Shown piece after piece: positions 15,781-36,172 of a stretch of 64,000 bases of DNA. The stretch's first letter is position 1. Each line of letters begins with the position of its first letter. The notes beneath the pieces are model-generated. The model saw nothing but the letters and a program-made list of their open reading frames with translations, ran no database searches and had not been told where the DNA came from. The position numbers and the translations under genes are program-made. The DNA is taken from contig NZ_FNLC01000002.1 in NCBI RefSeq assembly GCF_900104065.1, forward strand, positions 1,036,995-1,100,994, read 5' to 3'. Source of the stretch: Natronobacterium texcoconense. GTDB lineage: Archaea > Halobacteriota > Halobacteria > Halobacteriales > Natrialbaceae.

Positions 15781-16070
15781 ATGACTGGTGTTGAAACGGA
15801 TATAGATGTAGACGGTGAAGTCCATTTCTCGAGTTTGACTAAAGAGTATTCAAAGATGGTTCCGTCTAATAATGTCCGATCGCAATTCTTACAGCGGTAT
15901 CGCTAGAACACTTGATAGCTGCCGTGCCGATATTGATTGGGAACATCGTTCGTCGGACAGCACGTCCACGCCACCGTGCCTGCTGCGACTTCCAGCGACT
16001 GTTTCTGCCCACCAACAATCCTCTACCCAAGAGCGAATATATTAAATAATTGTCTGATTTATAGGTGAAT
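15781..16070. other. AT-rich intergenic DNA
   Basis: No coding frame, tRNA or clear repeat is visible. The stretch becomes AT-rich towards 16030-16060 (ATATTAAATAATTG), the probable promoter of the following lipoprotein gene. Confidence 0.5.
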
Positions 16071-16601: not shown

Positions 16602-16645
16602 TCCCTTACCAATATATTATTAATAATGGTGGTGGAGAGGATAGC

Positions 16646-17683: not shown

Positions 17684-17811
17684 ATCATATCCACTGACCG
17701 ATGATATTTTCTCATCTTCAATTGCACCAACTGTTGGTACACCAGCTACGGAAAGACTACCAATTGTTGATGCAGCGAGTATATCCCGGCGTTTCCAATT
17801 CTTCTTCTCAT

Positions 17812-18128
17812 TCCGCCTGTCTTTATTTTTCTTATTTATTTTCAGACTGCAAATAGCCCTACAGTGAATATCTATAAGTAATTTTTGGTGGTATTCTATA
17901 TTTATGAAGGACCAATGTTTTAATATTCGAGGGTGTAGAACCTGGTCTGTCTTGTTAGGTTATATGGTAATACTTCCAGGTGTATTAGTCATGGATCAAA
18001 CCAATTTGAGCAAACAATTAATAACATTTCCACATCATCGAAGTTGGTTAGAAGCTTGTTATTAGGATGGCTTCCTTGCGACCACATTGATTAATGCAAA
18101 TTTACGATTCACTCGGTCGTTCTTAGCG
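17812..18128. other. AT-rich intergenic DNA
   Basis: About 315 bp without a supportable gene. Composition is AT-rich, unlike the chromosome average. It may contain the promoter of the cysteine-rich protein gene (AATATA around 17900 on the minus strand). No repeat or RNA gene was recognised. Confidence 0.5.
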
Positions 18129-19444: not shown

Positions 19445-21329
19445 CTCCGAGTCGGTCGATCACGACGAAACTGACGCTCGTGACGACCAGCAGGACGACG
19501 CCCATTGCAGTCGCAGGTCCGAGCCGACGGCCCCTGAACCGTTCGATCGCGACCGGCATCGTGAACTGGTCGGTGCCGGTCGCCAGGATCACCGTCGAGG
19601 AGAACTCGCCCATCGAGATGGCGAAGGCGAAGGCCGCGCCAGCGACGACGCCTGGCCAGATCAGCGGCAGTTCGACGTCGACCAGCGCCCGCGCTCGCGA
19701 CGCGCCAAGCGCCCGCGCGGACTCGATCAACGACCGGTCGATCGATTCGAGGCCGGGCGCGACGGTGCGGACGACGAAGGGGTAACACGAGACGGCGTGA
19801 GCGGCGACGATCGCGATTGCACCGGCGACCGAGATCCGCCAGCCGCCGATCTCGAACCCGAAGACTGGCCCCCGAAGCAGACCGATGCCGACGATGATTC
19901 CGGAGACAGCCAGCGGTGCCATCAGGAGGGCGTCGACGATCTTTCGACCGCGGTACCGGCGGGTCGTCAGCACCGAGACGACGACGCCCATCGGCAGGGC
20001 GACCGCGAGCGCGCCGGCGGCGAAGATAAGCGAGTTCCGAACGGCGTCCCAGGGTCGGATCTGGAACGCCGCCGCTGTCTCCTGGCGCTCGAGCAGGAAC
20101 CGGTAGTGCTCGAGGGTGAGCCCGCCCGATCCGGTGAGGCTCGCGTAGATCATGCTCAGGACGGGCGAGACGAAGACGAAGACGGCGACGACGCCGTAGA
20201 CGGCCAGTCCGAACCGCGGCGCGAGTTCCCGAACCGAGAGCGACGGTGGGGACAGCGATCGGCGCGGCAGTGGGCGGATACCCCGTGATCGGACGACGTG
20301 GTTCGCCTCGTACCGCAGGTAGCCGTAGAGGACGGTCAGCGAAATGACCAGTTCGACGATTGCGAGCGCAGCAGCTTCGGCGTAATTCAGGTCCTGAATC
20401 TGGCGGTAGACGAACACCTCGACGGTCGCAAGCTGGAACCCGCCGAGCGCGAGGACGATTGGGAAGGTGCCGAACGTGAAGACGAACGTGAGCGCAGCGC
20501 CCATCAGGACTGCAGGGTACAGTTGCGGAGCGACCACGTCCCGGAACGCCCGGAACGGACTCGCGCCGAGACTGCGGGCGGTCTCGATCGCGCTCGCGTC
20601 GACCGACTCCCAGGCCGCGGTCGTCACGCGCGCGACGAGTGGCGCGTTGTAGAAGGCGTGGGCCAGCAGGATCACCTCGAGCGAGGGAACCAGCGAGACG
20701 GGACCGAGCCCCAGCGCTCCAAGAACCGCGTTGAACGTCCCGTTCTGGCCGAACGTCGCGACGAAGCCGATCGCAACCATGATCGACGGCAGGACGAACG
20801 GGAGGATCGTCAGCGCGCGCAGCGTCCGCCGGCCGCGGAACTCGTAGCGAGCGAGCAGGTAAGCCGCGGGCAGACCGAGCACGACGCTCATCAGCGTCGA
20901 CAGCGCGGCCTGATAGGCCGTGAAACCGAAGACGCTGGACGGGTGATCACCCGAGAGGTAGTCGCCGGCGACGGTGAGCGGCGACTCCCCGCTCAGGATT
21001 CGGGCGAGACCGCCGAAGTAGAACGGATCACGCAGTATCTCGAGAAAGACCGAGAGCGTGACGGCACCCTGGACGTAGATCGACTCGAGGAAGACCGTCG
21101 CGACGGGGTAGTAGAACAGGGCGAGCAATACGAACGCCGTTACGACGGCGAGGCCGGCGATCGCACGGCGTTCGACCCGGTTCTGGACGCGTCGGGTAAC
21201 GCCATCGGTCGTGGACTCCGGATCGGCGTTCGGGCGTCTCGAGTCGTCTCTTCCGTCGACGCCAGTCAACGGTTCGGTCGGGTTGGCGGGTGAGCGTTCG
21301 TGTCTGGAGTCGTCCGTTTCGTTCGTCAT
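19425..21329 (-). CDS. thiP: ABC transporter permease, two fused halves, probably thiamine (ThiP-like)
   Basis: Predicted 634-residue inner-membrane permease made of two homologous halves of about six helices each. Both halves show the EAA-type cytoplasmic loop that docks the ATPase: ETARSLGASPFRAFRDVV near residue 245 and ESARALGASRARALVDVE near residue 535. This fused architecture is the ThiP/FbpB type. The first ~65 residues are hydrophilic and disordered. It lies between thiB (upstream, same strand) and thiQ (overlapping), but the thiamine-binding gene at 21444 on the other strand separates it from thiB, so it likely has its own promoter in the 114-bp gap. Confidence 0.9.
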   Translation of the reverse strand: MTNETDDSRHERSPANPTEPLTGVDGRDDSRRPNADPESTTDGVTRRVQNRVERRAIAGLAVVTAFVLLALFYYPVATVFLESIYVQGAVTLSVFLEILRDPFYFGGLARILSGESPLTVAGDYLSGDHPSSVFGFTAYQAALSTLMSVVLGLPAAYLLARYEFRGRRTLRALTILPFVLPSIMVAIGFVATFGQNGTFNAVLGALGLGPVSLVPSLEVILLAHAFYNAPLVARVTTAAWESVDASAIETARSLGASPFRAFRDVVAPQLYPAVLMGAALTFVFTFGTFPIVLALGGFQLATVEVFVYRQIQDLNYAEAAALAIVELVISLTVLYGYLRYEANHVVRSRGIRPLPRRSLSPPSLSVRELAPRFGLAVYGVVAVFVFVSPVLSMIYASLTGSGGLTLEHYRFLLERQETAAAFQIRPWDAVRNSLIFAAGALAVALPMGVVVSVLTTRRYRGRKIVDALLMAPLAVSGIIVGIGLLRGPVFGFEIGGWRISVAGAIAIVAAHAVSCYPFVVRTVAPGLESIDRSLIESARALGASRARALVDVELPLIWPGVVAGAAFAFAISMGEFSSTVILATGTDQFTMPVAIERFRGRRLGPATAMGVVLLVVTSVSFVVIDRLGGESFGI

Positions 21330-21443
21330 GGATTTCGGGTCGTCGATTCAGTCCGCCGGTTCGGTTCGGCCTCGAGAAGCCGACACTGTGAGGGCGTGTC
21401 GACGATCCCAACGTCTATGAACCGCTCGAGACAACTCGGTGGT

Positions 21444-21758
21444 ATGACCGTGTTTGCACTGCTTCGCGTGACGCCAGTGACCGACGACGACATCACCGAG
21501 GACGTCGCCGCCGCCATCGACGCCCTCGAAGAACACGACGTCGAGTACGAGACGACGCCCATGGCGACGATTCTCGAGGCCGAAGACGTCCACGAACTGT
21601 TCGCGGCGTGTGCATCGGCCCACGAAGCCGTCGGGACCGGCGAGATCCAGACGCTGGTGCAGGTCGAGGAGAAACGCGAGGTCGAGATGGCCGCCGAGGA
21701 CAAAATCGACGCCGTCGAGTCGGAACTCGGCCGCGAGGCTCGAAGCGAACGGGAGTGA
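21444..21758 (+). CDS. MTH1187-family thiamine-binding protein
   Basis: Predicted 104-residue protein of the MTH1187/YkoF (DUF77) family, small ferredoxin-like proteins that bind thiamine and assemble as tetramers. Family features are the N-terminal strand VFALLRVTPVTDDDI, the EYETTPMATILEAE segment and FAACASAHEAVGTGEIQTL. The open frame begins at 21300 but homologues start at MTVFALLRV, here 21444. It sits antisense to the transporter operon, divergent from thiP and convergent with thiB, which strengthens the thiamine assignment of the locus. It may act as an intracellular thiamine carrier or sensor, which is inference. Confidence 0.85.
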   Translation: MTVFALLRVTPVTDDDITEDVAAAIDALEEHDVEYETTPMATILEAEDVHELFAACASAHEAVGTGEIQTLVQVEEKREVEMAAEDKIDAVESELGREARSERE

Positions 21759-21920
21759 ACACGAGTCCTGGTCGCGTTCGAGCGACCGCGGTTCTCTTTC
21801 TCGAGTGCGTAACCGGGACGTGAGCGATGCCGGTAGCGCCTGCTCGTCGACCGGGTTACGGCTGGGTGTGTAGCTATACGAGACACGGAAGTAGTTGTAA
21901 CAGCCCGAACGGAGCCGTCG

Positions 21921-23027
21921 TCAGTTCCCTCCCCAGACTTCGCGTTCCCACTCGTCGAGCCACCCGGTGAGGTTGTCCTGGAGTTCGTCGTAGCCGAAGA
22001 AGACAGTCTCGTCGGGCTGGATGGCGTACTCGGCGTACGCTTCGGGGAGTTCGGTCGTCTCGTTGACGGGACCGGTGACGTTGCGCTCGGCGATCACGGC
22101 CTGGACCTCGGGTTCGAGGATGAAGTCCATGAACTGGTGGGCCAGTTCGTCGTCGGTGCCGTCGGCGAACCGGGCCATGCCTGCCATGTTGGCGTATCCC
22201 TGATTGTGGAGGGTCGAGACCTGGTGTTTGTCGAGGTCGTTGCCGAACCGACTCGCGTAGACGCGGTCGTTCGTGTAGGAGACGACGACTGGGACGTCTT
22301 CCGATTCGAACTGCGTGTAGACGTCGTCCCACGAGTTGAGGACTCGGACGTCGTTGTCCATCAGGTCCGACCAGTAGTCGAGGTAGTCGTCCTCGCCGAA
22401 CATGTCGATCGTCCAGAGGAAGAACAGCAGTCCCGTCGTCGAGTCGTGCGGGTTCGAGAGCGCGATCTGTCCTTCGTACTGGTCGCCGAGCAGGTCGTCG
22501 AACGTCTCGGGCTCCTCGACGTTCCGGCCGTCGTAGACGATGCCACAGTGACTGCGGAAGACCGGAACTGCGCGGTCGTGTGGGTCGAAGTAGTACTCGT
22601 CGCCGATGTCTTCGGCGTTCGAGAGCGCGCTCTCGTCGGTCGTGGTGAACAGGTCGCCGTCGACGCGTTCCTCGACCCGGACGAGGTTCTGTGGCCTGAC
22701 ACCGACGTAGAGTTCGGCCTCGATGTCTACCCCTTCGTTGTGGCGCTCGGCGTAGTAGTTCAGTTCCTGCTCGGGGAACTCCCACTCGAGTTCGACGTCG
22801 TAGCGGTCCTCGAACTCGTCTTTGATCCACTCGCCGGGACTGTCACTCGGTGCGTCGACGAACGAGGAGTAGGTACCGACCGTGAGGACTGGGTCCTCGT
22901 CGACCGACCCCTCGGTACTGCCGGTTTCGTTGCTCCCGTTGCCGTTCTCGACGTCGATTGCGGAACAGCCCGCCAGTCCAGCCGTGGCGAGTGCCCCACT
23001 CGTCGTCAGAAACGTTCGTCGTCTCAT
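21921..23027 (-). CDS. thiB: Thiamine ABC transporter substrate-binding lipoprotein (ThiB/TbpA-like)
   Basis: Predicted 368-residue extracellular binding protein. The N-terminus MRRRTFLTTSGALATAGLAG is a twin-arginine signal ending in a lipobox with Cys21. The mature protein shows the type II periplasmic-binding fold pattern of TbpA: VLTVGTYSSFVDAPSD, FRSHCGIVYDGRNVEEPETFDDLL, IALSNPHDSTTGLLFF, and VVSYTNDRVYASRF in the ligand region. Extracellular, membrane-anchored, delivering substrate to ThiP/ThiQ. An inverted repeat (23029-23034 / 23043-23048) sits two bases upstream of the ATG. Only 51 bp separate it from the asparagine synthase-like gene upstream. Confidence 0.9.
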   Translation of the reverse strand: MRRRTFLTTSGALATAGLAGCSAIDVENGNGSNETGSTEGSVDEDPVLTVGTYSSFVDAPSDSPGEWIKDEFEDRYDVELEWEFPEQELNYYAERHNEGVDIEAELYVGVRPQNLVRVEERVDGDLFTTTDESALSNAEDIGDEYYFDPHDRAVPVFRSHCGIVYDGRNVEEPETFDDLLGDQYEGQIALSNPHDSTTGLLFFLWTIDMFGEDDYLDYWSDLMDNDVRVLNSWDDVYTQFESEDVPVVVSYTNDRVYASRFGNDLDKHQVSTLHNQGYANMAGMARFADGTDDELAHQFMDFILEPEVQAVIAERNVTGPVNETTELPEAYAEYAIQPDETVFFGYDELQDNLTGWLDEWEREVWGGN

Positions 23028-23028
23028 T

Positions 23029-23048
23029 ACCGGGTGGTCTCGCCCGGT
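23029..23048 (-). promoter_or_regulatory. Inverted repeat immediately upstream of thiB
   Basis: Arms ACCGGG and CCCGGT, six base pairs, with an 8-nt loop, ending two bases before the thiB start codon. TTACGTAT lies a few bases further upstream and may be the TATA element. In a leaderless or short-leader transcript the hairpin would sit at the ribosome entry site, or the repeat could be an operator. Confidence 0.35.
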
Positions 23049-23078
23049 GATACGTAAGGGGATCGTTTTCGATCGTCG

Positions 23079-24857
23079 CTATTCGAGTTCGGTTGGAAGC
23101 CCGATATGGGGGGCTGTAGGCGTCGAAGCCTCCGAATCAGAAAACTCGAGTCGATCGGTCGCCGCGAGCGTCCGGAGCGCGTAGAAGTTCCGCGACGGTG
23201 GAACGGCCTCGAGGAGGTCCTCCGAGAGAGTGCCGTACCACGCGAGCGGGTGGCTACCCGGCTCACCCCACGCCGACCGCGGGGCGAGAAACGGTGGGCT
23301 CCAGTCGCCGTCGCGTTCCGTGAACTGTCGTTCGGGCGTGTGCCTGACCAGACTCAGGTGACGCTCGAGCGGCGACAGCGTCCGGTCGGTGACGTCGGCA
23401 CGCTCTCGCGAACCGTCGGCTGCCCGGGCGTAGTACCGACGCGCGAGTTCGGCGTGGAGTCCCTTCTCCCGTCGCAGGGAGAGCGGAACGCGTTCCCAGG
23501 CTCGGACGTACGCGGGATCCCACAGCGGGAGCCACCAGTCGACGCCGGCGTCCTCGTAGGCTCGGAGGTCGCCGTTGGTGAACGTCGACATGCGTCCGCG
23601 CCACTCCCAGCGTTCGTACGCCGCAGCCGCCGTCGCTGGATCGGCGACCGATTCGGGCGCTCGAGTCCCCAGCAGTCCCCGTCGGATCCGCTCTCGAGCG
23701 GCGTCGCGAAACCGGTCGTCGTCCCACTCCCAGAGCGAGTAGTGGGTCTCGAGGACGTACTCGACCAGTTCGTCGACCGTCGGTTCGGTCGCGGCCTCGT
23801 CGACGTCCGAACCTGTGGACCCACAGCCGACCGAAACCGCAGCCGTTCTCTTCTCGTCGCCGACGAACGGCGGCAACCGCTCGCTCGGCGTCGCAACCGT
23901 GTGGCCGGGACAGTAGAGCGCGTCCGCCGGAAGTCGGCCAGCGTCGACGAGCGTTCGCAGCGCGGGCCACTCCGCGAGAAACGGGAGCGCGTCGCCGCCG
24001 AACGCCCGCTCGCGGTAGCGTCTGCAGTCGTCACCGTGGTACCACTCCCACCAGGCAGACTCGTCGTAGGGGACGAACTCCCAGTCGATACCGAGTCGGG
24101 ACGCGACCTCGCGGCTCACCTCCACGTCGGGGTGGCCGGATCGACCGAAGGTGTAGCCGACCACCTCGCGACCGCGTTCGGCCAACGCCGAAGCGAGTAG
24201 CCGCGAGTCGTACCCACCCGACAGCGGCACGACGATCGGACGCGCGCCGGCGACGCGCTCGAGACGATCGAGCGCGGTCTCGAGGGCGTCCTCGAGTCGC
24301 TGCAGGTGATTGGTACGGCTGGCTCGGGACTCCGAAGAATTTCGATCCTCGGGTCCGGCCGGCCAGTACTCGCGATACGTCCGCCTCGAGATTTCGTCGT
24401 CGTCGATCCGGACGACTTCGCCCGCCTGCGTGCTGTAGACGCCACGCCAGATCGTCTCGGGACCGGTCACGTACCGCGTCAGCAGAAACTCGCTTTCCGT
24501 GACGGGATGCGTTGCTGTCTCGAGGCGCTCGCGGACGAGTCGCCCCCGATCGGAGACGAACGTCCCATCGACGCTGTAGTACAGCGGTATCGAGCGTGCA
24601 CCGTCGGCGACCAGAAACGTCTTCCCGCCGTGAACGGCGGCGACAGCGTAGAACCCCTCGAGAGCGGCGGCGACGGTCGCGACGGCCTCGAGAGAGGACG
24701 CGTGTTCGGCCGCTCTTTGACCGTCGTCCGCCAGCGCGTCGCGAAACCGCCTCGCGAGGTCGGAACCGGCGAGGACCTCGTCACCGTCGAACGCCCGGCC
24801 ACGGACTGCGACTCCGTCGACGTCTGTCCAGTCAGTCGCTCGCAGGGCCGTTTCCAT
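23079..24857 (-). CDS. Asparagine synthase-like protein without the glutaminase cysteine
   Basis: Predicted 592-residue protein with the PP-loop ATP pyrophosphatase domain of asparagine synthase B: VVPLSGGYDSRLLASALAE at residues ~209-227, and downstream YTFGRSGHPDVEVSREVA and a C-terminal YEDAGVDWWLPLWDP segment like the AsnB synthetase end. The N-terminal ~160 residues resemble a class II glutamine amidotransferase fold (LVADGARSIPLYYSVDGTFV) but residue 2 is Glu rather than the catalytic Cys. It therefore probably uses ammonia or another amine, or modifies a different carboxylate. Such relatives occur in surface-polysaccharide and peptide-modification loci. Same strand as thiB, 51 bp apart. 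Confidence 0.82.
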   Translation of the reverse strand: METALRATDWTDVDGVAVRGRAFDGDEVLAGSDLARRFRDALADDGQRAAEHASSLEAVATVAAALEGFYAVAAVHGGKTFLVADGARSIPLYYSVDGTFVSDRGRLVRERLETATHPVTESEFLLTRYVTGPETIWRGVYSTQAGEVVRIDDDEISRRTYREYWPAGPEDRNSSESRASRTNHLQRLEDALETALDRLERVAGARPIVVPLSGGYDSRLLASALAERGREVVGYTFGRSGHPDVEVSREVASRLGIDWEFVPYDESAWWEWYHGDDCRRYRERAFGGDALPFLAEWPALRTLVDAGRLPADALYCPGHTVATPSERLPPFVGDEKRTAAVSVGCGSTGSDVDEAATEPTVDELVEYVLETHYSLWEWDDDRFRDAARERIRRGLLGTRAPESVADPATAAAAYERWEWRGRMSTFTNGDLRAYEDAGVDWWLPLWDPAYVRAWERVPLSLRREKGLHAELARRYYARAADGSRERADVTDRTLSPLERHLSLVRHTPERQFTERDGDWSPPFLAPRSAWGEPGSHPLAWYGTLSEDLLEAVPPSRNFYALRTLAATDRLEFSDSEASTPTAPHIGLPTELE

Positions 24858-24959
24858 ACCCGTGCTTCCGGCGAGGCGTATATAGAGTCGGCGGTGGGGA
24901 GACCGCAGCCTGTCACTCCCGGAGTAAATTTCAAGAGTCGGACAATGGAACGCCCAAAT

Positions 24960-25241
24960 ATGGGGATGTCTGGTTCGATCGATCCCGCAGTCGTACCGGT
25001 ACTGCTTCAGATCGACGCCACGATCGCAGTCGCCGCGATCGTGACCGTCGCAATGGCCGCCTTCAGCGTGTTCCTGCTGTATCTCGCGTTCGGGTCACAC
25101 GCACGCTCGCTCGAGAGTCCGACTGACCGCAGCGGGGCGTCGGTCGACGAGGACTCGAGCGACTCTCCCGAAGACGTCGCGGACGCCGAGACGGAGACAG
25201 AGCCGGTAAACGAGCGCGGCGACTCGGCCGGCGGGGACTAA
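24960..25241 (+). CDS. Single-pass membrane protein, function unknown
   Basis: Predicted 93-residue protein. An N-terminal transmembrane helix (TIAVAAIVTVAMAAFSVFLL, residues ~21-40) is followed by a ~50-residue acidic, disordered tail. Candidate starts are 24945, 24960 and 24966; 24960 is chosen arbitrarily among them. Divergent from the asparagine synthase-like gene and overlapping the end of the next gene on the other strand by 4 bp. No family recognised. Confidence 0.6.
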   Translation: MGMSGSIDPAVVPVLLQIDATIAVAAIVTVAMAAFSVFLLYLAFGSHARSLESPTDRSGASVDEDSSDSPEDVADAETETEPVNERGDSAGGD

Positions 25242-25858
25242 CGACGGGACCGGTCTTCGACGGACGTGTCTCGAATTGGAATGTCCACCGTCGACGTTTC
25301 GTCGAAGTCGGCCTCGAGGCCGATCGTCGAGGGAGTCGTCGGCTCTTCGGTGGCGTGTCCGATTCCGTCGTCGGGTTCGACCCGGCGCCGTTCGGCCGCG
25401 TCGTAGGACGAACCGAGCGCGATCAGGAAGCCGGTCATCGCGGTTACGAGGGCGACGCTTCCGATGGCGACGATGGCGATCGATACCAGCGCGCCCGAGA
25501 GCACCTGTCCGGCCGTCAGGAGCGACACCGCCGTCACAGCCGCGATCAGGGTCAGGAGGCGGGCGAGCCGTCCCGTATCGAGGCCGTGAAACTGCTTCTC
25601 GCCGGTTGTGTCGCGCAGCACCGACAGGATCCCATCGTAGCTGCCACCGGCCCGTGCGTTCCCGAGCGAGTGGATCGACTGGGCGATCCACACGCCGGCA
25701 GTGAAGTTCAGCAACGCGACGAACGAGACGACTCCGAGCTGGCCGTCGACGAACAGTCCCGCTGCGATCGCACCTGCGAGTGAGAGCGCCATGATACCGT
25801 GGGTCAAGAGCGATCGGGTACCGAAGTCTTCGAGGCTGTGAGCGTATCCGGAATTCAT
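25238..25858 (-). CDS. Four-helix membrane protein, function unknown
   Basis: Predicted 206-residue membrane protein from ATG 25858 (MNSGYAHSLEDFGTRSLL). About four transmembrane helices (e.g. GIMALSLAGAIAAGLFV, VVSFVALLNFTAGVWIA, LLTLIAAVTAVSLLTAG, SIAIVAIGSVALVTAMTGFL) and a ~60-residue acidic cytoplasmic tail. The frame opens further upstream, but that stretch is Arg/Pro-rich noise. No transport or enzymatic motif seen. Confidence 0.65.
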   Translation of the reverse strand: MNSGYAHSLEDFGTRSLLTHGIMALSLAGAIAAGLFVDGQLGVVSFVALLNFTAGVWIAQSIHSLGNARAGGSYDGILSVLRDTTGEKQFHGLDTGRLARLLTLIAAVTAVSLLTAGQVLSGALVSIAIVAIGSVALVTAMTGFLIALGSSYDAAERRRVEPDDGIGHATEEPTTPSTIGLEADFDETSTVDIPIRDTSVEDRSRR

Positions 25859-26011
25859 ACTACACTTAGGTTCCCGAAGAGTATAGTCCAGACGCCTACC
25901 AGTGCAACAGTTCGCAGGTCGGAACGGTCGTCGGTACCGACCTCTCCGGTGCGGGGACAGTAACGAGAGCCAATACCAAGCACCTTGGTGTTGGATACCG
26001 AACACGTGACC

Positions 26012-26464
26012 ATGGCGCTCCCCGCCTGGTTCCGAGACCTTCCGACGTGGGCAGCCGTCCTGAGTGGACTGCTCGGCGTGCTCGTCCTGATGACGGGACT
26101 ATCGATGGTTCTCGGGGTCGTCTTCGCCGGCATCGCCGTCGGCATCGAAATCGGGAGTCTCGCGGTCGGCGTCGTCGCCGCACTCCTCGGCCTGACCATC
26201 GTACTCGCTCCAGTCGTGGCGGCCGTACTCGCACTCTCGAGTGACGATGCTGGCGAGAGCGAACAGTTCGACGGCGAACGTGAGAGCACCGATCCTCGAG
26301 TCGAGACGCTGCGCGAACGGTACCTGTCGGGCGAACTCGACGAGGAGACGTTCGAACGGCGACTCGACGACCTACTCGGCGACGCCGGTACCGACCACCG
26401 AGACTCCAACTCGGAGACCAGCACTTCCTCAGAACGGTCGTTACTGGACGAACGCAACGGCTAA
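26012..26464 (+). CDS. Membrane protein with C-terminal SHOCT-like domain
   Basis: Predicted 150-residue protein: two or three hydrophobic helices in residues ~10-80, then a charged linker, then LRERYLSGELDEETFERRLDD near residue 108, the short amphipathic helix pair characteristic of SHOCT domains. SHOCT proteins in haloarchaea are common and mostly uncharacterised; the motif is thought to mediate oligomerisation or protein contacts. Start 26012 (MALPAWFRDLP) is preferred to the in-frame 25985. Divergent from the gene at 25238. Confidence 0.75.
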   Translation: MALPAWFRDLPTWAAVLSGLLGVLVLMTGLSMVLGVVFAGIAVGIEIGSLAVGVVAALLGLTIVLAPVVAAVLALSSDDAGESEQFDGERESTDPRVETLRERYLSGELDEETFERRLDDLLGDAGTDHRDSNSETSTSSERSLLDERNG

Positions 26465-26617
26465 CACCGGATTTTCAGGAACGGTTCGGTACCCGAACGT
26501 GGCTGGTTCGTCGCGACCGGAGAAAATGTGACTAGCACAATAATAAATGAGATATTGATAGATCCCCACCCCAAACAATCACTAGCTATTATATATGGAA
26601 ATAATTTCGAGATATTC

Positions 26618-27580
26618 ATGTGCCTTGATTGCAATGGGCATGGAACTGGCGAACGGCACTCCGAACGAAACGGTGACTCCAGATCGACCGCAGAGAGCGA
26701 CGGGACGAACTGGAAACGCCGGTCGCTCCTGCAGGCGACGGGCGTAGCTGCCGGGACTGGCGTACTTCTCGGTAGCCAGTCCGATCGCGTCTCGGCGTCA
26801 CACACGGAGTGTGATTCCGCGGATCGCTGGGTAGAGGCGGCGAACCACAGCGCTCGAGACCACGGCATCGACTGGATCGTCATTCACGTCACTGCGGGTG
26901 CGTACCAGGGCGCGTTGAACACGCTGACGAGTTCGGACTCGGGCGTTAGCTCCCACTACCTCGTGAAAAACTACAGCTGGACGGACGGACCAGAACCGGG
27001 CCACGTCGACCAGCTCGTCCACCACGACCGGGCGGCCTGGCACGCACGATACATCGCGAACCATCGGTCGATCGGGATCGAACACGAGTGGTTCGACGAC
27101 AACGGCATCACCGACGCCTGTTACGAGGCCTCGGCGGAACTCGTCCGCTGTATCGCCGACATGCACGACATCCCGCTCGAGTTCTACACGAGCAACACCT
27201 GCATCCAGAACGAACCCGGCGGGATTATCGGGCACACGCACGTTCCGGACGGCGACTGTAGCAGTTTCCACCACGGCGGGCGGACCTGTCCATACCCCGA
27301 TTGGGACATGGACCACTTCGCGGATCTGGTTCGCGACGGCGACGGCGGCGGCGGTGGCAACGGGTTCGAGGACGGGGATACCGTCGAGACGACGGTCGAT
27401 CTCAACGGCCGCGAGGGGCCGGGACTGCACTACGACGTCGTTCGGACCTATCCGACCGGGACGACCGGAGAGATCATGAACGGGCCGGAAACCAGCGACG
27501 GCTACACCTGGTGGGGAATTCACTTCCCGAGTTACAACGAGTGGGTCTGGTGTGTCGAGCAGTACCTGACCCACGCCTGA
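26618..27580 (+). CDS. Tat-exported N-acetylmuramoyl-L-alanine amidase with SH3-like domain
   Basis: Predicted 320-residue secreted amidase of the Amidase_2/T7-lysozyme/PGRP fold, which cuts the bond between N-acetylmuramic acid and the peptide stem of bacterial peptidoglycan. The Tat signal is NWKRRSLLQATGVAAG (residues 31-46). Zinc ligands are inferred as His90 (WIVIHVTAG), His206 or His208 (IGHTHVP) and Cys224 (RTCPYPDWDM); IGIEHEWFD matches the catalytic Glu region. After a Gly-rich linker (243-249) a bacterial SH3-like domain (250-320, VDLNGREGPGLHYDVV) could bind cell walls. ATG 26618 was chosen over a GTG at 26528. Haloarchaea have no peptidoglycan, so the target is presumably bacterial. 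Next to the halocin-like gene. Confidence 0.9.
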   Translation: MCLDCNGHGTGERHSERNGDSRSTAESDGTNWKRRSLLQATGVAAGTGVLLGSQSDRVSASHTECDSADRWVEAANHSARDHGIDWIVIHVTAGAYQGALNTLTSSDSGVSSHYLVKNYSWTDGPEPGHVDQLVHHDRAAWHARYIANHRSIGIEHEWFDDNGITDACYEASAELVRCIADMHDIPLEFYTSNTCIQNEPGGIIGHTHVPDGDCSSFHHGGRTCPYPDWDMDHFADLVRDGDGGGGGNGFEDGDTVETTVDLNGREGPGLHYDVVRTYPTGTTGEIMNGPETSDGYTWWGIHFPSYNEWVWCVEQYLTHA

Positions 27581-27651
27581 AACGGGTAGTCCCCGCGGTG
27601 TAGTCCGCGAATAACAGCACCTTTTAGCGGGCCGCCCGGTCTGGGTGGGGT

Positions 27652-27725
27652 ATGCAGATCAAAGACCGGGAACAGCTCGAGGGTGGGCGCGAACGGATCA
27701 CCGCCGTCCCCGAGAGCGTCGACGA
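27652..27725 (+). repeat. Partial duplicate of the pelA 5' end
   Basis: A 74-bp stretch matches the first 74 bp of pelA (29133-29206) at 70 positions, differing at bases 21, 33, 46 and 53, then diverges abruptly. It keeps the start codon and would encode [20 protein letters not shown] before running to a stop at 27759. A promoter-like CTTTTAGCG lies about 25 bp upstream, whereas intact pelA has other DNA upstream. The two copies are direct repeats enclosing the halocin-like gene. Confidence 0.9.
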
Positions 27726-27819
27726 TCCTGCAGTATCGATACACCACCGAGTCCGGTGATTGGGCCGACAACAGTGAGTTCACGAAGGTTGTCGCCCAGC
27801 AGTTGTGGAACGGCCCGAC

Positions 27820-28737
27820 TCAGGTACACTCGCTAACGCACGTGCCACAGATGACAGACGGCGTCCCGCAAGTGTGAACTAAACAAAGTACACAGCCTGT
27901 GACACCGATACCCGTCCCGATGACGCCAACGCACATTCCAGCGCAGGCCCCGCAGATCGTCGCTGTCGAGACACAGTTCAAACAGAGCGTCGGGCAGGGT
28001 CCGGCGATTTGCGTTTCGACGACTTCCCTCGCCTCAGTGATGTCGGAGTCAACCTGATAACGGGTGGTCGGATTTGCCTCACCTTCTGCTTCGGCGTGGG
28101 TACGACTTCCATCGTCGGCCTCGTCGTCCTCTCTGTGCACTACCCTGTAGCCCTCGGTGCGAGTATCGGACGTCGCTATAACGGCATCCGGACGCACATC
28201 AATGACGGCTGCAATTTCTCTACGCTCGTCGGCGGTGACGCTGTGGGAGAACACCGTCTCCCCATCAGCCGCGATCAGCACCGGATCGAGCTCCGGAGAG
28301 ATGTCGTGGATCAGTTCCGGATACGCCGAGTCGTCGTCGAAGAGGAGGTACGCTTCGTCGTGTTCCCGTTCGTAGTGAACCGTTCCTTCCGACGCCGAGA
28401 AGCTAACATACTCTATGAGTAGTTCGCCATTTGCATTCCGTACAGTCGTCTGCGTCGCATCTTGGGGACTCGGATTGAATTTCACTCCGGCTTCACTGTT
28501 GCCACCGTTTCCAAGCTGTGGCCGCTTCAGTTCGCGTTTAATCGCCTTGACTGGTTCTGAACGCAACGCTCGGCTGATTAAACGGCCGGAAGCGTCGTTC
28601 GCACGAATCCGAACGTCTCCCTCCGCTGCAGCACCCACACCGCTGGCAAACCCGCCGACTGAAGCCGCTGGGACACCTGCACTCGCCGCTTTCAGTACTG
28701 TTCGTCGATCAACCTCATTGTCCGTTTCGTTCGACAT
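27820..28737 (-). CDS. Halocin C8-like pre-pro-protein with Tat signal and 12-Cys C-terminal peptide
   Basis: Predicted 305-residue precursor. An N-terminal Tat signal, VDRRTVLKAASAGVPAASVG (residues ~9-28), is followed by a ~200-residue acidic pro-region and a 59-residue C-terminal peptide (247-305) with 12 cysteines in Cys-x2-Cys and Cys-x3-Cys spacings, rich in Gly, Val and Thr (PCPTLCLNCVSTATICGACA...). This is the layout of halocin C8, in which one gene encodes Tat signal, immunity domain and a cysteine-rich peptide released by cleavage and killing related archaea. The likely cleavage region is around the VDSDITEAR stretch. No protease or dedicated exporter is adjacent. Start 28737 (MSNETDNEVDRR) over 28758. 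Confidence 0.82.
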   Translation of the reverse strand: MSNETDNEVDRRTVLKAASAGVPAASVGGFASGVGAAAEGDVRIRANDASGRLISRALRSEPVKAIKRELKRPQLGNGGNSEAGVKFNPSPQDATQTTVRNANGELLIEYVSFSASEGTVHYEREHDEAYLLFDDDSAYPELIHDISPELDPVLIAADGETVFSHSVTADERREIAAVIDVRPDAVIATSDTRTEGYRVVHREDDEADDGSRTHAEAEGEANPTTRYQVDSDITEAREVVETQIAGPCPTLCLNCVSTATICGACAGMCVGVIGTGIGVTGCVLCLVHTCGTPSVICGTCVSECT

Positions 28738-28861
28738 TCCATTTGTGCTCAATATCAATTTAGAATAAATATCTTGGGCGACCGCCAGTTAAATTGCATC
28801 ATATATTCTGGTCGAATATACCGGAAAACTCTTTCGTAACCATATTTCATTCTGAATGTAA

Positions 28862-29083
28862 ATGGAAATAGCAAACCTCGGGGTCAATGCACTGTATATA
28901 GCCCTGTTCTGGGGACCATTTATCGTCGGTATTTACGCCCATGCGCGCCGGCGTGGAATCGCACGGCCGTTCCTGCGGGCGATCCTCTTCGGTGCGTTCG
29001 GACCGGGCGGAGCGGTAGTCTACTGGATACGACACGGACAGAACGATCCGGTATCCGATAAGTCGTCCGAGGCGAGTCAGTAG
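28862..29083 (+). CDS. Small membrane protein beside the halocin-like gene
   Basis: Predicted 73-residue protein with two hydrophobic segments ([19 protein letters not shown] and [16 protein letters not shown]) separated by a basic loop ([11 protein letters not shown]) and a short hydrophilic tail. It is divergent from the halocin-like gene (124 bp between starts) and 49 bp upstream of pelA. By position it could be an immunity or sensing protein for the peptide, but nothing in its sequence proves this; it could equally be an ordinary neighbour. Confidence 0.6.
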
Positions 29084-29132
29084 CTGCTGGAGGATCGCAG
29101 CCCACTTACCGACACCGTTCGAACCCGTTCTC

Positions 29133-30200
29133 ATGCAGATCAAAGACCGGGAGCAGCTCGAGGGCGGGCGCGAACGGGTCACCGTCGTCCCCGAGAGCGT
29201 CGACGACCTCTGGCACCTCCAGTACGTCCTCGAGCCCGGTGACCGCGTCGCGGGCGATACGACCCGACGGATCCAGCGCAACGACGACCAGATGCGGGAT
29301 ACGGGCGGCGAGCGCGAACACATGTGGGTCGCCATCGCCGCCGAGGACATCGAGTTCCACCGGTTCGCCAACCGGCTGCGGGTCGGCGGCGAGATCGTCG
29401 CCTGCTCGCGCGAGGATCAACTCGGCTTCCATCACACGCTCAACGTCGAGGAACGCGACGAGATTTCCATCGAGAAGTGGTTCAAGCCCGACCAGGAGGC
29501 TCGCCTCGAGGAGGCCGAAGAAGCCACCGAAAACCCCGACGTCGTCATCGCGACCGTCGAGGAGGGGAAGGCTCACGTCCACACGGTCGCCCAGTACGGC
29601 GCCGAGGAGCGAGCGTCGATCACGGGCCCGACCGGAAAGGGCGAGTACGCCCGCGAGCGTTCGGAGCTGTTCGCGGAACTGGCCGACGTGTTGAAACGCC
29701 AGGACGCGGACGCGATCATCCTCGCCGGCCCCGGATTCACCAAACAGGACGCCCACAAGTACGTCGAGGACGAGTACCCAGAGGTCGCCGAGAAGATCAC
29801 GATGGTCGATACGGCAAGCGTCGGCGACCGCGGCGTCCACGAGGTGCTCAAACGCGGCGCCGTCGCGGACGTCCAGCAGGAGACACGCATCGAGAGCGAG
29901 GCCGAGTACATCGACGAACTCACCGAACGCATCGCCCAGGGTGCGAAGGCAGCTTACGGTCCCGACGAGGTCCAGAAAGCCGCCGAATACGGTGCGATCG
30001 ACCAGTTGCTGATCCTCGACGACCGACTCCGCAAGGAACGCGGTCCCGACGGCGAGTGGGCTATCAACGTCGACGAAATCGTTCGCACAACCGAGCAGAA
30101 AGGCGGCGAGGTAACCGTCTTCTCGAGCGAGTTCCCGCCGGGCCAGCAACTCTCCAATCTCGGCGGCATCGCGGCGCTGTTGCGGTACCGACTCGAGTGA
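29133..30200 (+). CDS. pelA: Pelota homologue (aPelota), ribosome rescue and mRNA surveillance
   Basis: Predicted 355-residue archaeal Pelota, the eRF1-like factor that enters stalled ribosomes and, with aABCE1, splits them. The Sm-like N-terminal domain (1-~125: [36 protein letters not shown]) is followed by an eRF1-2-like domain without the GGQ tripeptide (~130-255: [20 protein letters not shown]) and an eRF1-3-like domain (~260-355). Absence of GGQ and NIKS separates it from release factor aRF1. Full length. Its first 74 bp are duplicated at 27652. A small membrane protein gene follows 4 bp after the stop. Confidence 0.95.
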
Positions 30201-30204
30201 TAGT

Positions 30205-30528
30205 GTGACCCCCGAGGCGACGCTCCTGTGGCTGCTCGCAATCGGGTTCTACGGCGTCGGCGACCTCGTGACGACGGCCGTCGGGATTCGGCTGGGACTG
30301 GCGGAGGGACAGCCGTTCGTCCAGCGAATACTCGGTGAGTCGCCCACACTCTGGCGGTTCGCTCTCTTCGGAGCGTTCAAAGCCGGGCTACTGGGCGGGT
30401 TCTATCTCGGATACGTCGCGCTCGAGGGTGTCCGATACCGAGTCGTGGTTCCGGCTGGCATCGCCGTGATCGGACTGTACGTCGTGTATCGCAACGGTCG
30501 CGCGATTCTCGGAGTAGTGAATCGGTAG
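30205..30528 (+). CDS. Small membrane protein downstream of pelA
   Basis: Predicted 107-residue protein, GTG start four bases after the pelA stop, so translationally coupled. Three hydrophobic segments are seen (TLLWLLAIGFYGVGDLVTTA, FALFGAFKAGLLGGFYLGYV, VVVPAGIAVIGLYVVY). The FKAG and GDLVTT motifs recall the DUF5658-like family. No function assigned. Confidence 0.7.
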   Translation: MTPEATLLWLLAIGFYGVGDLVTTAVGIRLGLAEGQPFVQRILGESPTLWRFALFGAFKAGLLGGFYLGYVALEGVRYRVVVPAGIAVIGLYVVYRNGRAILGVVNR

Positions 30529-30538
30529 CCGAGATCGT

Positions 30539-30886
30539 CTATCTTCCCGCTGCTCGTTCTTCGTCGGTCTCGAGCGGATCGATCTCGATGATCCCGTAGC
30601 TCTTGACGGTGATCTCGTACTCGAGATACTGGAATGCGACGACGCAGTCACCTGTTCTGTGGCTGGTGATCTGGGTTCGTACTAGAGCATCGAGTGCCCC
30701 CGGATCGATGGCCTCGTAGAGCGATGGCTCGACGTCCAGTGGCTCGACGCCGCGTATTGCGGCTACCGCTTCGACGACCGCGACGCTGGGAGCGAGTTCC
30801 GTGCTGTCGAACGTCGCTTTGTACGTGTTCGTCTCCCGATCGTACTCGACCGAAACCGTCGTGCTGCCGTCTCTAGTCAAGATCAT
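30539..30886 (-). CDS. HalOD1-domain protein
   Basis: Predicted 115-residue protein consisting of a HalOD1 output domain: VEAVAAIRGVEPLDVEPSLYEAIDP, LDALVRTQ, then a strand pair with Gly (FQYLEYEITVKSYGIIEID). HalOD1 is a haloarchaeal domain attached to signal-transduction proteins or free-standing; its role is not settled. It overlaps the Lrp gene upstream on the same strand by 14 bp, so the two are one operon and this protein may modulate the regulator, which is inference. Confidence 0.75.
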   Translation of the reverse strand: MILTRDGSTTVSVEYDRETNTYKATFDSTELAPSVAVVEAVAAIRGVEPLDVEPSLYEAIDPGALDALVRTQITSHRTGDCVVAFQYLEYEITVKSYGIIEIDPLETDEERAAGR

Positions 30887-31352
30887 CCCTCTCTACGAGA
30901 TGCTGTCCGAAGTGGCTGAACGGCTGTGTATAGGTCTCCTTGATGATTTTCGTATTGATGACTTCTAACCCGATGTCGCTGAGTTCGTCGGTGATACGGG
31001 CGACGTCGTCGGATTCCGTCCCGACCGCGTCGATCTGTACGTTCTCCTGTCCGTTGAGTACTTCTCGTAGAGCGATGACGCCGTTTACGTTCCGCCCCTC
31101 CTTGACGAGCCGTTCTCGTTCGGGGTTGGGAGCACTACAGATTATTTCGACGTACAGTTGGAGCCCCGCCTTGTCGTAATCGACGTCGGGATAGTAGCCA
31201 CGGATGATCCCTTTCTTTTCCATTCGATTGATACGGTTGCGGACGGTGCTCGCCGAGACGCCCACCTGCTCCGCCATCTCCTGGGTAGTGAGACCGCGGG
31301 CATCGCGCTGGAGTAAATAGAGGATTCCTTTGTCCGTGCCGTCCAATTCCAT
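30873..31352 (-). CDS. Lrp/AsnC-family transcriptional regulator
   Basis: Predicted 159-residue regulator. The N-terminal winged HTH (residues ~5-55) has LTTQEMAEQVGVSASTVRNR as recognition helix region, and the C-terminal RAM-like alpha/beta domain (~65-150) has LYVEIICSAPN and NVQIDAVGTESDDVARI. These proteins form octamers that bind amino acids and loop DNA. The 215-bp region upstream is AT-rich and shared with the divergent gene at 31568. Effector and targets unknown. Confidence 0.88.
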   Translation of the reverse strand: MELDGTDKGILYLLQRDARGLTTQEMAEQVGVSASTVRNRINRMEKKGIIRGYYPDVDYDKAGLQLYVEIICSAPNPERERLVKEGRNVNGVIALREVLNGQENVQIDAVGTESDDVARITDELSDIGLEVINTKIIKETYTQPFSHFGQHLVERDDLD

Positions 31353-31505
31353 AATCCGAAATTGAACGGCGTTCTGTTATCTTTTTCGCAATGATACGAC
31401 CATCAGAAGCTAAAACAGCATACGCGAATGAAAATATACTAAATTAGCAAATCCAGCTGGATAAAGAGAAAGTTTCTAACCGATAGTTGCGAAACTAATA
31501 AATCA

Positions 31506-31526
31506 CTGTGTGAAGTATTATCACAG
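31506..31526. promoter_or_regulatory. Inverted repeat upstream of the DUF7344-like gene
   Basis: CTGTG and CACAG arms enclose an 11-nt AT-rich spacer, about 41 bp before the start at 31568 and within the divergent region facing the Lrp gene. It is a plausible operator for either regulator. A second short palindrome, AGTTGCGAAACT, lies about 20 bp upstream of it. Confidence 0.3.
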
Positions 31527-31567
31527 GGGTATGGCCAGGACGACTATCGGACACCTCCCGAAAAAGT

Positions 31568-31882
31568 ATGCCCGAATCTGACGCCGATTCAGTCGATTCC
31601 GTTCTCGAGGCGGTAGCCGAACAGCACCGACGACTGACGCTCCGATACCTGGAAGGGGCAACGGACGGAGTCGCGTCGATCGAGGAAATCGCGGAGTACG
31701 TTGCTGCCGAGAGTTCGAAACACCGAACCCCAGAACGAGCGACGATACGCCTGCATCACGCCACGTTGCCGGCGCTGGAGAACGCGTCTCTCGTCACGTT
31801 CGATCCCCACAGTGGAGCGGTTGAGTATCATCGCGACCCCCTCGTCGAGAAAGTGTTGGCCAGTATCGACGACGATAGCTGA
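31568..31882 (+). CDS. DUF7344-like winged-HTH protein
   Basis: Predicted 104-residue DNA-binding protein. Its pattern, LEAVAEQHRRLTLRYLEG, ASIEEIAEYVAAES, TIRLHHATLPALENASLVTF, then a wing EYHRDPLVEKVL, matches the small haloarchaeal winged-helix family often labelled DUF7344. These are one-domain transcription regulators with no known ligand. It converges on the TrmB gene and is divergent from the Lrp-HalOD1 pair. Confidence 0.75.
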   Translation: MPESDADSVDSVLEAVAEQHRRLTLRYLEGATDGVASIEEIAEYVAAESSKHRTPERATIRLHHATLPALENASLVTFDPHSGAVEYHRDPLVEKVLASIDDDS

Positions 31883-31896
31883 CTGTCGGTCCCCCG

Positions 31897-32652
31897 CTAC
31901 TCGTCGGTCACTTCCTCTCCTGCTTCGATCAACTGAACCAGCACCGACGCGAACAGCGACCCCGAACTCCAGATTGCCGTCTCCGTCCCGTCGTCACCGA
32001 CCACGCTCAACAAAATGCTGTCGTCGTCCGCGATCACGATCCGACCCGAACGCTGGTCGCTCTCCCGGTAGACAGGCGGTGAATCGATCGTCACTCCCTC
32101 GAGCGCGCCGAGCCGATTTCGGACCCGAGCAGCGCGACTAACCGCGGTCACCGTGACGTCGTCGGTCGCACGCTCCTCGAGCGTCCGTTCGATTCGTTCC
32201 GTGACGAGTTGGGGGAGTCGCGTCCCGAAGACGATCCGGTCCTCGGCTCCCGAGAGCAGGTCGACGACGCGGTCGTCGACGCGATCACGACCGCGAACCG
32301 TCCAGATATCTTCCTGAGTTTCCTCGACGGTCGATTCCTGCCGGACGTCGTCGACGTACTCGAAGGCACGGTCGCGTTCGCACTCGAACCGCTCCTGCAG
32401 CGTTTTCTGGGCCTCCTCGAGACTCACCGGCCGATACCGGATCGGACTCGACTGCTGGAGTTCGAGCAAGCCCCGGTCTTCCAGGCTCTCGGCGACGCTA
32501 TATACCTGGGAACGGGGTACGTCGGCGATGCGAGCGACGTCGCGTGCAGTCCCGGTTCCCAGCCGGTGAAGCGCGATGAACACCTTGGCCTCGTAACTGG
32601 TGAGTCCGAGGCGTTCGAAGGCTTCGACGGCCTCGTTTTCGTCGACGGTCAT
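31897..32652 (-). CDS. TrmB-family transcriptional regulator
   Basis: Predicted 251-residue regulator. The N-terminal winged HTH (residues ~10-80) has LTSYEAKVFIALHRLG and DVARIADVPRSQVYSVAESL; the C-terminal part (~105-240) resembles the TrmB ligand domain (DLLSGAEDRIVFGTRLPQ, RIVIADDDSILLSVVG). TrmB proteins sense sugars or other small molecules. The start overlaps the stop of the MMPL transporter by 4 bp, so this gene is co-transcribed downstream of it and may autoregulate the operon. Confidence 0.87.
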   Translation of the reverse strand: MTVDENEAVEAFERLGLTSYEAKVFIALHRLGTGTARDVARIADVPRSQVYSVAESLEDRGLLELQQSSPIRYRPVSLEEAQKTLQERFECERDRAFEYVDDVRQESTVEETQEDIWTVRGRDRVDDRVVDLLSGAEDRIVFGTRLPQLVTERIERTLEERATDDVTVTAVSRAARVRNRLGALEGVTIDSPPVYRESDQRSGRIVIADDDSILLSVVGDDGTETAIWSSGSLFASVLVQLIEAGEEVTDE

Positions 32653-35600
32653 CGTCGATCACCCTCGTTGTCGATGCGGTCCGTGTCGTCGGTCTCGGGA
32701 GTGTCGCCGGGCTCGCCGGTGACCTCGGGCGTTCCACCGTCGCTCGCGGTCGTCGCCGGCGGTCTCGTTCGCTGGCGAGCGAAGGAAACGTCCGGCCCGA
32801 AGTAGCGCGTCCACAGCACCAGAAGCGTCGGGAGTACGACGACGCTCGCCAGGAACGCGTACGCGATCGTTAGCCCGGTGATGATCCCGAACTGTCGGAG
32901 AACGGGCAAGATCGCGAACGCGAGGGTGCCGAATCCGCCGATGGTCGTCGCGGCACTTCCCAGGAGTGCACCGCCGGTACCGGTGACCGTCGTATGCAGC
33001 GCCGACCAGACGTTGCCCTGACGCTCGAGTTCGAGCGTGTAGCGGGCGCTGATATGGATGCTGTAGGCGACGCCGAGGCCGATCGTGAGGCTGGTGATCA
33101 TCCCGGTCAACACGTTGAACGGCATGCCGATGAGGTACATCGTCCCGAGGATCCAGCTGGTCGCGAACGCGACGGGCAGCAGGGTGACGGCTCCGAGCGT
33201 GGCGCTGTTGCCCGTCAGCCAGTAGGCTCCCGTCAGGAACGTGAAGACGGCCACGAGCGTGACCATGAGGCTCTGGAGGACGGTGTCGAACAGATCCTGT
33301 TCGACGATGTAGTTGACGATCGGATCGCCGGTCGCGATCGCGACGAGTCCGTCGTCCTCGTGCTCGCGGTCGTCGCCCACGTCGCCGTCGTCGATCGTCG
33401 CTGCAATGTCTCTCATCTCGGTGGTCGTCTCGTCGAAATCCGCGTCGCCCTGGGTAGCGACGAGCAGTCGAACGGAGTCGTACTCGCCATCGTCGGTACG
33501 GTGGATGACGTCGCGTGCAGCGTCTTCGTTGACGTCGAACAGTTCGTCGTATAACTCCTCGACGTTCTGGTCCGGGACGTCGTTACCCGTCGTATCCGCG
33601 TCAGTGAACGATTCGTTGAACGACTCGTTCTGGGCCGCCGTCTCTTCCATCACCGAAATCGGTCCCTCGACGTCGGCCTCGCCGTCGGGGAGCGTGTAGA
33701 CGACGTCGCTCTCTGCGGCTTCGTCCTGTGCGGCCTCGAGGCGCTCTAACGTCCCGTTTTCGGCGACCGGCCCCTCGACGAGTAGCTGTACCTGGAGGTC
33801 GTCACGCTGGAAGTTCTCGTTGACGTAGTCCAGGTTGTCGGCTGCCTGGTACTCGCCGGGAGCCATCGGTCCGGGCAGGGAGTTCGTCCAGTCGGGTGGA
33901 CTCTCCGCGAGGAAGTCCTCTTCCTCGAAGCTGGTGTCGATCTGGCTCGCGCCGTAGACGCCGCCGGCGGTCAACAACAGGACGGCCACGAGGAGGACGA
34001 TCGGGATTCGTCGCGCGGCACCGGAGCCGATTGTGAGGACGCTGGCGAGGCGACCACCGCCAGTCCCGAACGCCCGCCTGTGACGGTCGAACCCACGGGA
34101 CTCGAGGAACGCGTCGATCTCGACTTTGGCCGCGGGAATCAGTCCGCCGAAGACGATCAGTGCCGAGAGGATACCGACGGCGCTGACGACGCCGAACTCC
34201 TGGATCGGACCGATCGGACTGACGAGATTCGCGAGGAAGCCGATCGCCGTCGTCGCCGTCACCCAGACCAGGGCGACGCCGACGCCGGCGAGTGCGATGG
34301 CCATCGAACCTCTGACGCCGTTTCTCGTCGCGAGTCCTGCCGAATCCCCGTCCGCATCTGATCGGTCCTGCCTCTGTTCCCGGTGGCGCATGAACACGTG
34401 TATCGCGTAGTCGATCGAGAGCCCGATCAGTAAGACGGGAACCGCGACGAACATCTGGTTGAACGCGATATCCGCCCAGCCCATGAAGCCGAACGTCCAG
34501 ATCAACACCGCGACGATACCGGTGACCCCGAGAACGATGTCCAGCGGATCGCGGTAGGCGATCAGCAACGCCGCGACGACGAACGCAAGCGCCAGCGGTC
34601 CGACGATCGCCAGACTGTCACCCATCGACCGGTCGATCTCGTCGGTGATAATCCCGGCCCCGAAGACGATCTGATCGTGGTCGTGTGCGGACGCGAGATC
34701 GCGCAGATCCAGCTGTGCCTCGATCACCGCGTCGTCGCCCGCCCCCATCTCGAGACCCTCTTCACCCGCATCCTGGCTGACCGCGGTCATTCGAGCGTCG
34801 GCTTCGGTCGAGCCCGGATCGTACTCCGACGGCATGAACGCGAGTCCGGCCCCACCGTCGTCGTCCGACAGGGTGTCCTCGAGGGCGTCCTCGAACTCGT
34901 CATCGTCCAGCCCCTCGAGGATCTCGATCTGTTCGTCGACCGATGGTCGCTCGTCGTCCTCCTCGAGTTCCGTCCAGTCGTCCTCGAGTCGCTCCTGATC
35001 GGCCTCGAGTTCGTCGAACTCGTCTTCGAGTTGCTCCTGGTCGTCCGCTAACTCCGCGGAGTCGTCCTCGAGTTGTTCGTATTCGTCCTCGAGGACGCCC
35101 ATCGTCGCGCCGGTGTAGATACCCTCGAGTTGTTCGTTCAGTTCCTGATACTCGGGAACGTCCTCGGGGTCATCGGTCGTCTGCTCTATCTCGAATAGCT
35201 GAGACTCGATCTCCTGGGCCTGGCCCGCAAGCTCCTCGTACTCGGCGGCCTGTTCGTCGTCGAGACCGGCAGTGACCTCCTCGAGGAGCGCGTCGTACTC
35301 GGCCTCGAGTTCGGCGGTTCCTTCCTGGTACTCGGGGTCGTCCTCGTCGTACTCCGCGCTCAACTCCTCGTATTCGCGCTGGAGGTCGCGCGCTTCGTCG
35401 ATTCCGGTCTCGAGTTGCGCGCTGGTCGCGTTCAGTTCGGCCTCGCGCTCCCCGAGTTCCTCGCCACGCTCTTCGAGTTCGTCAGCGCGTTCCTCGAGTT
35501 CCTCACCACGCTCCTCGAGGTCGTCGCCGCGTTCCTCGAGTGCCTCTATTTCCTCGTTCGTCTCCGCCGTCATCGCGACGAGGTTCTCGACGCCGGTAAT

Positions 35601-35939: not shown

Positions 35940-36172
35940 TCGACCGTCACCACCGGCTGTCCGTCTGCTGTCGTGGGGACCATGCTGTTGTTATGATCCT
36001 ACAAAATCCCCGCGCTTATACGTGTTAGGAGGTTTATACTTTTGTGAACGTCGTCGGTCGTAACCAGTTAGATCGCCAACGAACCGACCAAAACCGAAAG
36101 CAAGAGAAGGAATCGAGGATGGTTTCTCGAGGCACTACGCGATCGGAAACACGTCAAGAAAGCGTACGGTCG

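Follow-up and report, generated by a model that had tools for sequence, protein, structure and literature searches.

The window analysed here is the whole stretch of 64,000 nucleotides from Natronobacterium texcoconense, whose haloarchaeal genome is 4.0 Mb in size and falls into one family with Natrialba and Natronorubrum. Within the window, about 2.6 kb separates a native SHOCT gene from the intact pelA gene, and this interval holds, in order, an amidase gene, a Natrialba-type pelA promoter with 74 bp of pelA, a halocin-like gene, a 73-aa ORF and a congener-type pelA promoter (Table 1). The gene pair reported in the preliminary description, a Tat-type Amidase_2 protein with an SH3-like domain and a halocin-like precursor (26618-28737), was found to be real. 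Elsewhere in the window, positions 16001-18000 showed a G+C content of about 40% compared to 64% for the genome and may be a foreign stretch.

Table 1. Features of the amidase and halocin-like locus, in coordinates of the window
Feature	Position	Strand	Description
SHOCT-domain membrane protein gene	25985..26464	+	Native left flank; 64% identity in L086 (tblastn synteny); PF09851 just under cut-off
TATA-like amidase promoter TATTATATATGG	26587..26598	+	About 20-31 bp 5' of ATG; putative function
Amidase gene	26618..27580	+	N-acetylmuramoyl-L-alanine amidase, Amidase_2 plus SH3-like domain, Tat-exported, 320 aa
Amidase_2 catalytic domain	26867..27295	+	aa 84-226; zinc ligands H90, H206, C224
SH3-like C-terminal domain of amidase	27365..27577	+	aa 250-320; swapped among amidase lineages
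Amidase-pelA intergenic of Natrialba type, including pelA promoter block AATAACAGCACCTTTTA	27581..27651	+	From flank alignment
Truncated pelA copy, first 74 bp	27652..27725	+	70/74 identical to intact gene
Halocin-like precursor gene	27820..28737	-	305 aa from ATG 28737; Tat signal, N-domain, Cys-rich C-terminal peptide
Cys-rich C-terminal peptide of halocin-like precursor	nt 27823-27996	-	aa 248-305
73-aa ORF	28862..29083	+	Two predicted membrane segments; divergent from halocin-like gene; putative immunity or export role
Native pelA promoter block GATCGCAGCCCACTTACCG	29093..29111	+	Common to congeners; right edge of inserted stretch
pelA (pelota, mRNA surveillance), intact native copy	29133..30200	+	TIGR00111 299.7 bits

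The amidase was compared with profile and structure collections. The Pfam search assigned it to PF01510 Amidase_2 (E 1.3e-19, 71.3 bits, cut-off 26), and it is the sole protein of this kind in the genome. The arginine pair RR34-35, invariant in 16 relatives, forms together with a hydrophobic stretch a Tat-type signal, for which the NCBIfam model TIGR01409 gave 13.8, below its cut-off of 16.7. The alignment revealed that the zinc ligands H90 and H206 are invariant over the 16 relatives, and that the third ligand position, C224 in this protein, is Cys in most of them and Asp in two. The fold family by profile and the two His ligands are common to AmpDh2, AmiD, AmpD and the secreted actinobacterial N-acetylmuramoyl-L-alanine amidases (PDB relatives: AmiD, AmpD, AmpDh2 and AmpDh3), whereas the Cys third ligand in place of Asp, the SH3-like tail, the Tat signal and the haloarchaeal host set the protein apart from the known Amidase_2 enzymes. 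Streptomyces proteins, with about 30-34% identity, were among the nearest bacterial amidase relatives found on plasmids. For residues 250-320, the best fold-search matches of the predicted model were SH3 domains at marginal E-values (E 2.8e-3), and these residues gave no match in Pfam, its wall-binding families included. The AlphaFold model of the amidase was too poor (mean pLDDT 37), and its SH3-like tail (about 70) was the only part informative in the fold search. The AT-rich box before the ATG is found at a similar position in 12 orthologs and, owing to this conservation, the gene looks expressed rather than decayed. We infer from the sequence that the amidase is built for cutting bacterial murein.

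The relatives of the amidase were analysed for context and descent. The 11 close orthologs (78-82% identity; seven from Natrialba (g14), three from Natronorubrum (g23) and one from a g8 genome) all lie upstream of pelA. In several of them the gap to pelA is about 60-150 bp; in others, a homolog of the window's gene at 25238-25858 or other genes intervene. In some Natrialba (L074, L076, L082) this homolog separates the amidase from pelA; in Natronorubrum-type genomes (L078-L080) it lies upstream of both, before the amidase, the differing positions marking a small rearrangement hotspot beside pelA. The four congeners (G080-G083) have no amidase. With the Natrialba and g23 proteins, the amidase shares 92-94% identity in its catalytic domain and only 63-69% in its SH3-like domain; with the g19 proteins, the values are 43-44% and 79-85%, respectively. 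From these opposite identity patterns it follows that the SH3-like domain was exchanged independently of the catalytic domain and that, on these comparisons, it moves between amidase lineages separately from it. The exchange accords with a report of shuffled domains in other murein hydrolases from archaea (PMC12352652). In the tree, the amidase was not placed inside Natrialba and the deep nodes were weak, a result compatible with import of the amidase as well as with loss in the congeners. A viral origin was rejected, as no viral relative was found in IMG/VR (pattern search) or INPHARED.

A cluster of genes for the uptake and breakdown of muropeptides was found in the same genome (L213, G000:C2:580000-599999), outside the window. 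It encodes a fused OppD-OppF-type ATPase, two permeases and a family 5 binding protein for transport, along with an enolase-superfamily enzyme, an IclR regulator, AnmK (G000:C2:589860-591011), NagZ, NamZ, a creatininase and a PIG-L deacetylase. AnmK and NagZ pass the NCBIfam equivalog cut-offs and NamZ passes the Pfam cut-off; the enolase-superfamily protein scored below every equivalog cut-off, so that a role as L-Ala-D/L-Glu epimerase is only a guess. AnmK occurs in five of the 125 family genomes, this one included, and in none of the four congeners. The amidase is present in three of the five AnmK genomes (p 0.097 over the 125 family genomes), and most amidase carriers lack AnmK. More distant amidase relatives were also located on plasmids of Halorussus vallis, limi and aquaticus, where they (about 31-34% identity, 206 aa, without the SH3-like domain) lie inside AnmK-NamZ-NagZ clusters; in H. 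vallis, the 34%-identity relative stands among AnmK, a beta-lactamase-fold hydrolase, NamZ and a GH3 NagZ. In the three plasmid loci (L208, L218, L219) it is this relative of the Tat-amidase that is embedded in the cluster, and GH18 genes come next in L218 and L219. The relatives in Haladaptatus halobius and Halocatena salina are not in such a cluster. Archaea are a domain of life without murein. The genome holds all three enzymes of bacterial murein recycling (NamZ, NagZ, AnmK) and an oligopeptide transporter, but the haloarchaeal host itself lacks a murein to recycle, hence the substrate of these enzymes would have to be bacterial. The literature search, with the terms tried, found no papers on haloarchaeal muropeptide catabolism.

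The role of the amidase was considered in the light of this cluster. As a Tat-secreted zinc N-acetylmuramoyl-L-alanine amidase, the protein is predicted to act extracellularly on bacterial murein, cutting it so that stem peptides and glycan are set free, and the Opp-type transporter, NamZ, NagZ and AnmK, presumably coupled to it, would take up and break down the muropeptides. The main benefit is probably feeding on bacterial walls, of dead or attacked cells, because the genome itself holds the cluster for muropeptide uptake and catabolism. The location of this cluster about 470 kb from the amidase, and the weak association of amidase with AnmK in the family, speak against feeding, as do the amidase carriers without AnmK and the missing SH3-like domain of the Halorussus amidases. 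The alternative, in which the amidase chiefly serves as a weapon exported for the lysis of living halophilic bacteria and the halocin-like neighbour is incidental, agrees with the export signal, the catalytic residues and the SH3-like, putatively wall-binding domain, and the sparse, uneven distribution and the domain exchange also fit an arms-race weapon. Published precedent, to which the preliminary description had rightly pointed, exists in Woldo and Danwoldo of Halogranum salarium, two murein hydrolases that lyse bacteria (PMC12352652). These are likewise haloarchaeal murein hydrolases with domain shuffling between lineages, and Woldo is Tat-exported with a separate binding domain, but Woldo combines an M23 peptidase domain with PG_binding_1 where the present protein has an Amidase_2 zinc amidase and an SH3-like domain. 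A mainly weapon role is nevertheless rather unlikely, as the genome encodes uptake and degradation of the amidase products and relatives sit in catabolic clusters. The two roles are not mutually exclusive, and the study that showed killing of bacteria by archaeal murein hydrolases states the question of killing or feeding as open; it also reports that Opp-type murein peptide uptake genes are more frequent in archaea with murein hydrolases (PMC12352652). The gene content offers a lead, not a proof; with it, feeding on bacterial walls is no less probable than killing.

The halocin-like precursor carries the arginine pair RR11-12 and has 12 Cys within its last 58 residues. No family in Pfam, NCBIfam or PHROGs covers it. 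The ten full-length relatives have in common the RR pair, several N-domain residues and eight invariant C-terminal Cys. In the profile search, strong members turned up in about two dozen of the family's 125 genomes and, beyond it, in several further families of haloarchaea, counts that leave out matches near E 1e-4 covering only residues 1-65 (Tat signals). Members often occur as diverged tandem pairs. The gene is absent from the congeners, apart from a match in G082 that is confined to the Tat region. Two matches with in-frame stop codons (L094 in G055 and L011 in G097) are apparently decayed copies. The AlphaFold model was too poor for use (mean pLDDT 34).

Relation to halocin C8 was assessed with curated models and profile comparison. 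Both are Tat pro-proteins, about 300 aa long, that end in a Cys-rich peptide, and in some halocin C8 loci small membrane ORFs adjoin the gene; on the other hand, neither N-domain nor peptide showed a reliable sequence relation, and 12 Cys in about 58 aa stand against 10 in 76 aa for halocin C8. The model TIGR04449 (halocin C8 C-terminal domain) matched two annotated halocin C8-like proteins but not, even at E 10, the precursor. PF22862 (Hac8-like N-terminal domain), present in annotated halocin C8-like proteins, is absent from the precursor at E 0.1 and from the genome. The hhalign comparison of the two C-terminal domains returned a probability of 0.3%. The halocin C8 peptide used as query is identical letter for letter in a genome locus (L192) and matches annotated halocin C8-like plasmid genes. 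Membership in halocin C8 was accordingly rejected: by these comparisons, the term halocin-like fits the precursor architecture, and membership in the halocin C8 family as curated does not. By its profile matches, the gene instead belongs to a distinct family of Cys-rich precursors that is uncurated and widespread among haloarchaea.

The ORFs adjoining the halocin-like genes were inspected as well. Two-helix ORFs (45-110 aa, at most 160 bp downstream, same strand) followed 10 of 35 halocin-like genes, compared with 24 of 321 controls (p 6e-4), in a test made post hoc, after the pattern had been noticed, and with control genes from a different mix of loci. Such membrane ORFs stand directly downstream of the halocin-like gene in L120, L121, L128, L146, L149-L151, L153 and L155. 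At a guess, they may be candidate immunity or export partners. The 73-aa ORF of the window is divergent and upstream of the halocin-like gene, in the same way as small ORFs by two halocin C8-like genes, and is conjectured to be a possible immunity or export helper. Homology to the small ORFs of the halocin C8 loci was rejected, since no common family was found; they are alike in kind only. The cassette would comprise the small membrane ORF and a Tat-exported pro-protein whose C-terminal peptide is rich in disulfides, the peptide presumably being released from the precursor and having putative halocin activity. That the protein is some other secreted Cys-rich protein, for instance a metal-binding or surface protein, and not an antimicrobial, agrees with its standing outside every curated halocin family and with an antimicrobial activity that is putative. 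This is considered rather unlikely in view of the pro-protein layout resembling halocin C8, the Gly/Ala-rich, hydrophobic and Cys-rich tail, the diverged tandem pairs, the sporadic distribution and the small two-helix membrane ORF that follows the gene in 10 of 35 cases, compared with 7.5% of controls.

The junctions of the inserted stretch were examined at pelA. A 74-bp direct repeat at 27652-27725 and 29133-29206, with four mismatches, flanks the halocin-like gene and the 73-aa ORF. The left copy of the pelA 5' end has a Natrialba-type flank and the right copy a congener-type (native) flank; in the congener G081, pelA comes directly after the SHOCT gene. Because the duplicated pelA 5' end has two flank types, the adjacency of amidase and halocin-like gene is attributed to recombination at this end, and the duplication is, as judged from its flanks, a recombination scar. 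By this recombination, the halocin-like cassette would have come to lie between amidase and pelA, with 74 bp of the latter being duplicated. Insertion between the SHOCT gene and pelA in one step or in two is compatible with the sequence. A longer pelA duplicate was rejected, as no homology above that of shuffles was found beyond 74 bp (p 0.18). The stretch 27726-27850 had no match among the 125 genomes. A tRNA or RNA anchor for a mobile element was likewise rejected, with no tRNA in the window and no Rfam match at 20000-36000.

The preliminary description had interpreted the pair as one locus arming the cell against bacteria and against archaeal kin. An exported murein-type amidase does stand beside a plausible halocin-type precursor; the single locus and the joint action found no support. 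No halocin-like gene lies beside the amidase in any of the 11 close orthologs, the pair was found in this genome alone, and over the 125 family genomes (amidase in 31, strong halocin-like member in 23) both genes were present in five against 5.7 expected (p 0.80), that is, at chance level. A pair seen once and by chance is the outcome that the preliminary description had itself named as refuting its view. The amidase (+) and the halocin-like gene (-) are convergent, each with a separate AT-rich upstream region, in a layout without a shared promoter or co-transcription. One antimicrobial island, gained and kept together, is therefore very improbable, even though the two genes are adjacent, exported, absent from the congeners and placed between native SHOCT gene and native pelA in a layout compatible with one import event covering about 2.6 kb, for they are convergent, unpaired elsewhere and separated by the truncated pelA piece. 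The two genes apparently adjoin by chance insertion, not as a weapon island. The reading slightly favoured is that they are functionally separate, the amidase mainly feeding on bacterial walls and the halocin-like gene being an independent, recombined-in cassette.

Recombination between the 74-bp copies would delete the halocin-like cassette and restore the amidase-pelA arrangement. The halocin-like family, missing from Pfam and NCBIfam yet present in many haloarchaea, provides a list of candidate archaeocins. The genome, which combines a secreted amidase with a seemingly complete cluster for muropeptide catabolism, makes a testable strain with named genes for the question of killing or feeding. 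It is suggested, tentatively, that some haloarchaea may eat bacterial walls, the amidase opening the murein, the Opp-type transporter importing the products and NamZ, NagZ and AnmK in the cytoplasm feeding the sugars into metabolism, with the halocin-like proteins as a separate family.
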